From: Nitrospirota bacterium
GTDB taxonomy: Bacteria > Nitrospinota_A > UBA7883
DNA length: 64,000 nt
Reading direction: 5' to 3'
NCBI GenBank assembly: GCA_024275315.1
Contig: JAJRZK010000003.1
Coordinates: 62,001 to 126,000 of the forward strand
In this document: one piece after another, positions 20,264-23,910 of the stretch
Numbering within the stretch: the stretch's first letter is position 1
Layout: each line of letters opens with the position of its first letter
Notes under the pieces: model-generated
Told to the model about the DNA's origin: nothing
What the model saw: only the letters and a program-made list of their open reading frames with translations
Database searches by the model: none
Translations under genes and position numbers: made by a program

Positions 20264-20284
20264 ACTGGGAATAATTTGGTTTTT

Positions 20285-22570
20285 ATGGATAAAGCTCTGG
20301 TAGTCGTGGAATCCCCCGCAAAAGCTACGACGTTGAACCGTTATCTGGGGAAAAATTACACCGTCATGGCCTCGGTGGGGCATATAAAGAACCTGCCGAA
20401 ATCGAAGCTCGGTGTGGATATCGACAACGAATACAAGCCTGAGTTTGTCACCATCAGAGGCAAAAGCAAGATTATTAAAGAGCTTAAAGCCGCGGCTAAA
20501 AAGGTGGACACCATATATCTGGCCCCCGATCCGGACCGTGAAGGCGAGGCTATCGCCGCCCATATCGCAGACGAGATAGGCAAGGGCAAAAAGGTCTACC
20601 GCGTGCAGTTTAACGAAATCACCAAAAAGGCGGTTTTGGAAGCTATGAAAAACAGGGGCGAAGTCGATCAGAACCGTGTTAACGCCCAGATGGCGCGCAG
20701 GATTGTCGACCGACTCATGGGATACAAGCTTTCACCGTTGCTATGGGAAAAGGTCCGCAAAGGGCTGTCCGCCGGCAGGGTACAATCTGTGGCGCTGATG
20801 CTTGTGGTGGAGCGGGAAAAAGAGATCAAGGCTTTTAAGCCTGTGGAATACTGGTCCATTATCGCCCAGGTAGAGGGCAAGAGTCCTCCGCCGTTTGAAG
20901 CGAAAATATTGCACCACCTGGGGAAAAAAGTTGAAATCGGCTCTGAAGAGCAGGCGAAGCTAATAGCCGAAATAGTTGAAAAATCAGACCTTGCCATAAC
21001 AAGGCTTGAGAAAAAGGAGCGCAAACGCAATCCTTCACCGCCTTTTATAACATCGACGCTACAGCAGGAGGCCAGCCGCAAGCTCCGGTATTCCGCCAAA
21101 CGCACAATGATGCTGGCGCAGAAACTGTATGAGGGAATGGACGTTGGCGAAGGTGATCCGGTGGGTCTGATAACATACATGAGAACAGATTCCACCAGAA
21201 TTTCAGAAGACGCCGTTTCCGAAGTGCGGGACTTTATCACCAAAGATTACGGAAACAGCTACCTTCCCACCAAACCGCTAACCTATAAAACCAAAAAATC
21301 CGCGCAGGACGCGCATGAGGCCATACGGCCCACCTCGGCGCTGAGAACTCCCGCCTCCATAAAAAGCAAGCTGTCGAAGGATGAATACAACCTTTACGAG
21401 CTTATCTGGAAGCGTTTCGTGTCGTGCCAGATGACCCAGGCTGTTATGGATGTGACCACGGTGGACATAAAAGCCGGGGATTACAACCTGCGCGCTTCGG
21501 GATCGATATTGAAATTCGACGGGTTCCAGCGGGTTTATGAGGAGTCTCAAGACCAGCCGTCCAGTGAGAAGCAAAGCGACACTGACCGGCGACTGCCCCC
21601 GGACCTTGCCAAGGGCGATCTGGTAAAGCTGTTAAAACTCGATAAAAAACAGCATTTTACCCAACCTCCCCCACGGTTTACAGAGGCGATGCTGATAAGG
21701 GAGCTGGAGGAAAAAGGGATCGGCAGGCCGTCTACATACGCCGGAATCATGGATACAATCCAGGAGCGGGAATATTGCCAGGCTGTGGAGCGAAGGCTCA
21801 CCCCTTCAGAGCTTGGAATTCTCGTCACCGAGTTGCTGGTGGAAAACTTTCCTGACATCCTCAATGTGGAATTCACCGCCCAGATGGAAAAGGAGCTGGA
21901 TCAGGTGGAGGAGGGGTCCAAAGCGTGGACCGCGGCCCTGGACGATTTTTACAAGCCCTTTGCGGCCGACCTGGAAAAAGCCAAGACCAACATGCGAAAC
22001 GTCAAGGCCGAAGCGGAAAAGACAGATATCGTATGCGAAAAATGCGGCAAAGCGATGGTCATCAAATTTGGACGGTTTGGCAAGTTTCTGGCCTGCTCGG
22101 GCTATCCGGAATGCAAGTTTACCATGAAGCTCGCGAAGGATGGAACAGTGGCTCCGAAAGTCGAGGCTCCGCCGGATGAGCCGACAGATTTAAAATGCCC
22201 TACCTGCGGCGAACCGATGGTGATAAAGACCGGCAGGTTCGGCCGGTATATCGCTTGCGTCAAGTATCCCGAGTGCAAAACCACAAAGCAGATAGGGATC
22301 GGCATAATGTGCCCAAGAGATGGTTGCAAAGGCGAATTGACAAAAAAACGGAGCAGAAGGGGTATAACCTTTTATGGATGTGATCAGTATCCCAATTGTG
22401 ATTTCACCTTGTGGGGTGAGCCGGTGAATGAACCATGTCCCGACTGCGGCAACAAGCTTCTTGTAAAAAAATCGCTCAAGTCCGGCATGTTCTTGCAGTG
22501 TCCCGTGAAAGAGTGCGCGTTTAAAAAAGAAATTGTCGAAACCACCGAAACCCCCAAATCCGGAGGGTAG
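20285..22570 (+). CDS. topA: DNA topoisomerase I
   Basis: Relaxes negative supercoils. The 761-residue protein has the Toprim domain at the N-terminus (ALVVVESPAKATTLNRYLG), the DPDREGEAIA acidic motif, and the catalytic tyrosine in LITYMRTDSTRIS. The C-terminus carries four zinc-ribbon units beginning near CEKCGKAMVIKFGRFG, CPTCGEPMVIKTGRFG, CPRDGCKGELTK and CPDCGNKLLVKK, which bind single-stranded DNA. ATG 20285 is chosen over a TTG 9 bp upstream because family members start MxKALVVVESPAK. It is co-directional with and 2 bp from the proposed start of trmFO. Confidence 0.97.
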   Translation: MDKALVVVESPAKATTLNRYLGKNYTVMASVGHIKNLPKSKLGVDIDNEYKPEFVTIRGKSKIIKELKAAAKKVDTIYLAPDPDREGEAIAAHIADEIGKGKKVYRVQFNEITKKAVLEAMKNRGEVDQNRVNAQMARRIVDRLMGYKLSPLLWEKVRKGLSAGRVQSVALMLVVEREKEIKAFKPVEYWSIIAQVEGKSPPPFEAKILHHLGKKVEIGSEEQAKLIAEIVEKSDLAITRLEKKERKRNPSPPFITSTLQQEASRKLRYSAKRTMMLAQKLYEGMDVGEGDPVGLITYMRTDSTRISEDAVSEVRDFITKDYGNSYLPTKPLTYKTKKSAQDAHEAIRPTSALRTPASIKSKLSKDEYNLYELIWKRFVSCQMTQAVMDVTTVDIKAGDYNLRASGSILKFDGFQRVYEESQDQPSSEKQSDTDRRLPPDLAKGDLVKLLKLDKKQHFTQPPPRFTEAMLIRELEEKGIGRPSTYAGIMDTIQEREYCQAVERRLTPSELGILVTELLVENFPDILNVEFTAQMEKELDQVEEGSKAWTAALDDFYKPFAADLEKAKTNMRNVKAEAEKTDIVCEKCGKAMVIKFGRFGKFLACSGYPECKFTMKLAKDGTVAPKVEAPPDEPTDLKCPTCGEPMVIKTGRFGRYIACVKYPECKTTKQIGIGIMCPRDGCKGELTKKRSRRGITFYGCDQYPNCDFTLWGEPVNEPCPDCGNKLLVKKSLKSGMFLQCPVKECAFKKEIVETTETPKSGG

Positions 22571-22575
22571 ATATC
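22562..22575 (+). promoter_or_regulatory. Ribosome-binding site and non-canonical start of trmFO
   Basis: GGAGG at 22562-22566, spacer GTAGAT, then ATC (22573-22575). The topA stop TAG (22568-22570) lies in the spacer, so ribosomes ending topA would be positioned to re-initiate. Confidence 0.55.
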
Positions 22576-23910
22576 TATAGGGTTTGCGTCGTCGGAGCCG
22601 GACTGGCCGGTAGCGAAGCGGCATGGACTCTTTCCCGTATCCTTAAAGAACGGGTCAGTGTAGACCTTTTTGAAATGCGGCCCGGCGTCAGCACACCGGC
22701 GCACACCACGGGATACCTGGGGGAGCTGGTCTGCTCCAACTCGTTGAAATCAGAATCGACAGATTCCCCTACCGGCAGGCTCAAGGAAGACCTGGCGCTC
22801 CTGGACTCGCTCATTATAGCCATGGCCCGGCGCCACCGGGTTCCCGCCGGCAAGGCGCTCGCGGTGGACCGGGAAAAAATGGGGCGAGCCGTGACGGCCA
22901 TGATCGAGAAACAACCATCGATCAACCTGATCCGGGAAGAGATAACCGAAATCCCCAAAGGTTATGACCGGATCATAGTGGCCACCGGCCCTCTTACATC
23001 AGAACCGTTATCCAAAAACCTTGCGACGATTGTAGGGTCAGAATCGCTTTATTTCTACGACGCGATCGCCCCTATTGTAGACGCCGATTCCATAGACCAC
23101 GATATCGCTTTTGTCCAGGACAGGTACGGGCCGCCGGGAAGCGGGGATTATCTTAACCTGCCGATGACAAGGGATCAGTATGGCGATTTTGTTCAGGCCC
23201 TGCTGGCCGCCGACACCGTCGAATTCAAGGATTTCGAAAAGCGGCTCTATTTCGAGGGATGCCTGCCCATTGAAGAAATCGCCTCAAGAGGGCCGGAAAG
23301 CCTGTCTTTTGGTCCATTAAAGCCTGTGGGACTGAACGGACCGGACAGCAAACGATCATACGCCGTCGTCCAGTTACGCAGGGAAAGCGCCCAGGGTGAT
23401 TCATACTCCCTCGTCGGGTTCCAGACCAGGCTGAAAATCGCGGAACAGCAAAGAGTTTTCAGAACAATCCCGGGCCTGTCCGGGGCGGAATTTCTGAAGT
23501 ACGGGTCGTTGCACCGCAACACATATATCAACTCGCCAAGCTCGGTCAATCATGATCTCGCCATCAGGACACGCCCTGACGTACGGCTGGCAGGGCAGAT
23601 AACCGGGGTGGAGGGATATGTGGAATCTGTAGCCATAGGCCTGCTTGCGGCGCTGTTCACTGTAGCCGATCTCACTGGGACCCATTTTCAAGCCCCTCCG
23701 CCCACCACCACCCTTGGCGCCTTGCTGAACTATATCACCGATCCTGGCAGGGCGAAAAATTTCCAGCCGACCAACATAAATTTTTCTCTTTTCCCTCCGG
23801 CGGAACAGAAAATCAAAAGCCGCAAGCTCAGACGTTCGGCGGCGATGGACCTCGCCATGGATGATTTTCTGAAATGGAAATCCGGATTATCGGCTGATTT
23901 CGCCTCCTGA
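22573..23910 (+). CDS. trmFO: tRNA (uracil-5-)-methyltransferase TrmFO, with apparent ATC start
   Basis: Methylates U54 of tRNA using methylene-tetrahydrofolate and FAD. The frame encodes the FAD-binding strand VCVVGAGLAGSEAAW at the N-terminus, then FEMRPG, HTTGYLGELVCSNSLKS and the C-terminal GVEGYVESVAIGL, all typical of the family, so the protein is full length at about 445 residues. However, between the in-frame TAA at 22522 and the ATG at 22675 there is no ATG, GTG or TTG. A perfect GGAGG (22562-22566, inside the end of topA) is followed after six bases by ATC at 22573, exactly where relatives begin. Starting at 22675 would remove the dinucleotide-binding loop. I therefore annotate an ATC start, with a sequence error as the alternative. 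Confidence 0.88.
   Translation: MYRVCVVGAGLAGSEAAWTLSRILKERVSVDLFEMRPGVSTPAHTTGYLGELVCSNSLKSESTDSPTGRLKEDLALLDSLIIAMARRHRVPAGKALAVDREKMGRAVTAMIEKQPSINLIREEITEIPKGYDRIIVATGPLTSEPLSKNLATIVGSESLYFYDAIAPIVDADSIDHDIAFVQDRYGPPGSGDYLNLPMTRDQYGDFVQALLAADTVEFKDFEKRLYFEGCLPIEEIASRGPESLSFGPLKPVGLNGPDSKRSYAVVQLRRESAQGDSYSLVGFQTRLKIAEQQRVFRTIPGLSGAEFLKYGSLHRNTYINSPSSVNHDLAIRTRPDVRLAGQITGVEGYVESVAIGLLAALFTVADLTGTHFQAPPPTTTLGALLNYITDPGRAKNFQPTNINFSLFPPAEQKIKSRKLRRSAAMDLAMDDFLKWKSGLSADFAS

Follow-up and report, generated by a model that had tools for sequence, protein, structure and literature searches.

The gene for initiation factor IF3, infC, starts with AUU, AUA or AUC behind a strong Shine-Dalgarno (SD) sequence. 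In Staphylococcus aureus, the starts of infC (AUA), ccpN (AUA) and cvfC1 (AUU) are all accompanied by an extended SD, and reporters bearing the two newly found sites, those of ccpN and cvfC1, yielded about 10-30% of the output obtained with AUG (PMC13009471). In Streptomyces, infC starts with ATC and sigR with GTC, and sigR is repressed by IF3 (PMC5472188). A survey of related genomes found AUG start codons switched to CUG in 2 and to AUU in 1 of 61,358 cases (PMC5622118), so that a conserved AUC start must be considered rare, though of a known kind.

Here, we describe a comparative analysis of the start of trmFO, the gene of a tRNA-modifying enzyme, in a stretch of 64,000 nucleotides from Nitrospirota bacterium, an uncultured organism resembling Nitrospinota; the stretch is hereafter called the window. 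The gene probably starts with fMet at the AUC at 22573-22575; an upstream GGAGG would compensate for the weak codon, and production of the enzyme behind topA would be low. Like infC, trmFO would thus possess an AUH codon behind a strong SD; infC autoregulates itself, whereas trmFO encodes an RNA-modification enzyme, on which any effect of IF3 would be exerted in trans. The gene resembles ccpN and cvfC1 of S. aureus in the conservation of a noncanonical start, which in those genes is offset by the extended SD and lowers output (PMC13009471). Their starts were established by ribosome profiling and reporters, whereas that of trmFO is read from sequence, in a different gene and a different phylum and with AUC as the codon. 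Streptomyces sigR is likewise a gene other than infC, and a rare start codon determines how much of it is made (PMC5472188). It differs from trmFO in that its start is GTC, its product is a sigma factor and the case is experimentally proven. Conserved AUC starts outside infC are, to our knowledge, hardly documented, and trmFO is most likely an addition to the few genes in which a noncanonical start is conserved. If true, the level of TrmFO would be linked to initiation fidelity, through IF3, and to the translation of topA, and an AUC start in the gene of a tRNA-modifying enzyme would have been visible from comparative sequence alone.

In the window, trmFO follows topA in the -1 frame relative to it, and the locus consists of these parts:

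20276..22570, forward strand: topA (DNA topoisomerase I), an open reading frame scoring 844.7 bits against TIGR01051, whose tail carries the trmFO SD
22522..22524, forward strand: in-frame TAA closing the trmFO frame upstream, formed by the TopA Phe-Lys codons TTT AAA
22562..22566, forward strand: SD sequence GGAGG, 6 nt before ATC
22568-22570, forward strand: topA stop codon TAG
22573..22575, forward strand: proposed ATC start codon of trmFO, matching Met1 of 3g5q and shared with the relative G003
22573..23910, forward strand: trmFO, 445 codons plus stop, FADH2-oxidizing folate-dependent tRNA m5U54 methyltransferase (NF003739 and TIGR00137)
22594..22617, forward strand: FAD-binding motif GAGLAGSE, upstream of the first canonical start

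The first ATG, GTG or TTG in the trmFO frame after the TAA at 22522-22524 is the ATG at 22675, and GAGLAGSE is encoded within the 50 codons between the two. The preliminary description had claimed that this stretch encodes the FAD-binding strand and has no canonical start, and that the GGAGG at 22562 is well spaced to the ATC at 22573; both claims held, the spacing from GGAGG (22562-22566) being 6 nt, within a range of 5-9 nt. A gene caller limited to ATG, GTG and TTG would predict a TrmFO that is 34 residues too short and has no FAD site, and the same kind of error would arise in at least four of the species considered here.

Translation might instead begin at ATG 22675, the first canonical in-frame start, and yield a shortened protein, or the gene might be decaying; either is very improbable. 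In profile searches, the window gene scored 509.9 bits against TIGR00137 (cut-off 428.65), covering profile positions 2-430 of 433, and 578.8 bits against NF003739 (cut-off 262); judged by these two NCBIfam equivalogs, both above cut-off, it is a bona fide full-length trmFO. Its product is 52-63% identical to its relatives and possesses the N-terminal FAD-binding GxGxxGSE as well as the conserved cysteines (CSNS, GCLP), and columns G8, G10, G13, C54 and C230 are invariant in the TrmFO alignment (A1). A start at ATG 22675 would drop TIGR00137 profile positions 2-30 and lose GAGLAGSE, the glycines of which are invariant in the family. Decay is opposed by the full-length frame, which is kept in 8 of 9 members of the order (that of G003 ends at a contig edge), and by purifying selection, with dN 0.11, dS 0.77 and dN/dS about 0.14 in the single pair compared, G002 and G005. 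The TrmFO of T. thermophilus (3g5q; TIGR00137/NF003739) is homologous to the window protein over the full length and shares its N-terminal strand; query residue 19 pairs with its chain residue 3, and query residue 17 corresponds to ATC, so that ATC falls on Met1. The earlier expectation that the N-terminus from ATC would fit the family was borne out by this alignment with a solved structure. What distinguishes the window gene from other trmFO genes is that ATC occupies the start codon position.

The same-order set carrying topA-trmFO comprised nine genomes: the window genome, G001, G002, G003, G005, G007, G008, G009 and G010. Of 96 trmFO genes from outside the order, 92 had a canonical start 4-14 codons ahead of GxGLAG, versus one of nine within it (Fisher p = 1.5e-8), a nearby canonical start thus being missing from 8/9 in the order and 4/96 elsewhere. 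In the window, G002, G003 and G005, the open trmFO frame is entirely devoid of a canonical start. G003, from a different genus, bears ATC at the same codon as the window, 7 codons before GxG and with GGAGG 7 nt upstream. In G002 and G005, a CTG preceded by AGGAG at 8 nt stands 9 codons ahead of GxG and overlaps the topA stop as CTGA. The sole order member with a near canonical start is G001, whose TTG, 8 codons ahead of GxG, forms part of a TTGA overlap. A tree of topA plus trmFO placed the window and G003 as sisters (support 0.989) and G001 weakly with the CTG pair (0.58); the same two groupings appeared with topA only (0.77 and 0.90) and were absent with trmFO only. In the stretch that separates the topA tail from the strand 1 Val, the window and G003 have a single codon in common, the ATC (counted from GxG, by eye), and this sole shared codon suggests constraint.

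These comparisons bear on the simple alternative raised in the preliminary description, a single-base error giving ATC for ATG. The sister genus has ATC rather than ATG or GTG at this codon, and as a general explanation the alternative is refuted by the relatives. An assembly or sequencing error in a single genome is scarcely credible: the window comes from a draft genome in 63 contigs, but the independent genome G003 shares the ATC, and G002 and G005 also lack a canonical start. Another noncanonical codon might serve in place of ATC, for example the GTA at 22567, which overlaps the topA stop (GTAG) as the counterpart of CTGA in G002 and G005 and of TTGA in G001. The GTA-TAG overlap recurs in G007, G009 and G010, and even GTC can start translation, as in sigR (PMC5472188). 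We regard initiation at GTA as distinctly improbable, however: GTA 22567 directly abuts GGAGG, with 0 nt spacing, an NTA overlapping TAG is a trivial outcome of the -1 frame, and GTA encodes a core Val in G007 and G010.

The GGAGG 6 nt before ATC is out of the ordinary for this genome, because SD pairing of at least 5 nt accompanies only 4 of the 42 ordinary starts in the window. Across these 42 gene starts, initiation in the window genome seems largely SD-independent. Synonymous shuffling of the topA tail gave an SD with p = 0.27 for the window, 0.09 for G003 and about 0.3 for G002 and G005 (up to 0.31), values that are not significant when combined; the SD alone is therefore not taken as proof of the ATC start, and the Gly/Glu codons at the end of topA could partly account for it. 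It is also partly paired in a predicted hairpin. Patterns for the 16S rRNA 3' end, which would carry the anti-SD, found no match in the window genome and its relatives. A coarse test of 47 coding-scored open reading frames in the window revealed no clear case of another gene lacking a canonical start near its N-terminus.

The infC genes of the lineage provide a further comparison. That of the window genome starts with ATA, with TGGAGG at 6 nt; among order-mates, the start is ATC in G003 (AGGAGG) and ATT in G004, G005 and G008, and infC starts of the lineage mostly lie behind GGAGG-type sites (loci L135, L134, L140, L142 and L132). AUH starts thus appear functional in these cells. Together with the conservation in G003, the alignment with Met1 and a strong SD in an SD-poor genome, these infC starts support ATC as the start of trmFO, as had originally been proposed; no ATG, GTG or TTG would give the full protein. 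In the mechanism that we envisage, the GGAGG in the last topA codons would offset the weak AUC codon 6 nt downstream, and ribosomes would initiate there with fMet to make TrmFO at a low level. Translation of topA may feed this initiation, and IF3, by analogy with infC, could hold its rate down.

One start rule does not cover the whole order. In G007, G008, G009 and G010 (loci L003, L005, L008 and L009), a nearby canonical start is missing, and so is a near-cognate one preceded by an SD; their closest canonical starts lie within topA, 16-22 codons or more ahead of GxGLAG, as a by-product of the topA zinc-finger Cys codon. The trmFO product of these four may arise from the upstream ATG/GTG inside topA or from a frameshift. 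As a general start, the ATG/GTG in the zinc-finger Cys codon (GAATGCGG), which several order-mates possess, was rejected, being blocked by the in-frame TAA in the window, G002, G003 and G005. The order-wide lack of a normal trmFO start is the part that initiation at AUC leaves unexplained.

A -1 ribosomal frameshift in the last topA codons would produce a TopA-TrmFO fusion in the whole order with no need for a start codon. It is the main rival to the AUC start, because it alone covers G007-G010 without further assumption, and we consider it unlikely. Every one of the nine order members has trmFO in the -1 frame relative to topA, an arrangement that is not constant elsewhere; in each of them, the two genes overlap or no more than 23 nt separate the GxG core from the topA stop, and the -1 frame is open from the permissible site to the core. 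Furthermore, in the topA tails of G002 and G005 (L004, L007), the shared-residue codons from TTTAAAAAA to CTGA are identical in 9/9 cases, against a background of 0.70. On the other hand, no slippery heptamer of the dnaX type (X_XXY_YYZ) is conspicuous where a shift near the junction would be permissible: C_CCC_AAA and T_AAA_AAA, the best candidates, are at chance level, and none is common to the nine genomes. Nor was an unusual downstream RNA structure that might stimulate a shift predicted at 22520-22640 (z = -0.02). The -1 frame would also stay constant if topA gained and lost bases in threes and its stop moved by point mutation, and a frameshift leaves the Met1 alignment and the conservation of ATC unexplained. 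On the choice left by the preliminary description between ATC and a start upstream through a frameshift in topA, the evidence favors ATC, with the frameshift persisting as a rival on account of the nine -1 frames, which, like the order-wide lack of canonical trmFO starts, the preliminary description had not noted. A broader explanation, conceivable though doubtful, is that the whole order lost the canonical trmFO start and made production of the enzyme dependent on topA. This could occur through initiation at near-cognate codons (ATC, CTG and TTG within a single family) that topA translation feeds, or through an unrecognised -1 frameshift that lacks a classical slippery site and gives a TopA-TrmFO fusion.

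At loci L005 and L025, topA runs over the first trmFO codons, and its stop lies inside the GxGLAG codons (GGT TAG CC). In G011 (L143) and G004 (L144), topA has a short tail ending in TAA and trmFO does not stand behind it, so that these genomes offer no further start to compare. In the class-mate family f6, trmFO was not found in the genomes searched, and a search of viral contigs for relatives yielded none. Among the 96 trmFO genes outside the order, only L118 has no canonical start whatever. This Anaerolineae trmFO, which does not stand behind topA, bears an ATC 12 codons before GxG and 8 nt after GGAG (L118, just upstream of 3001).
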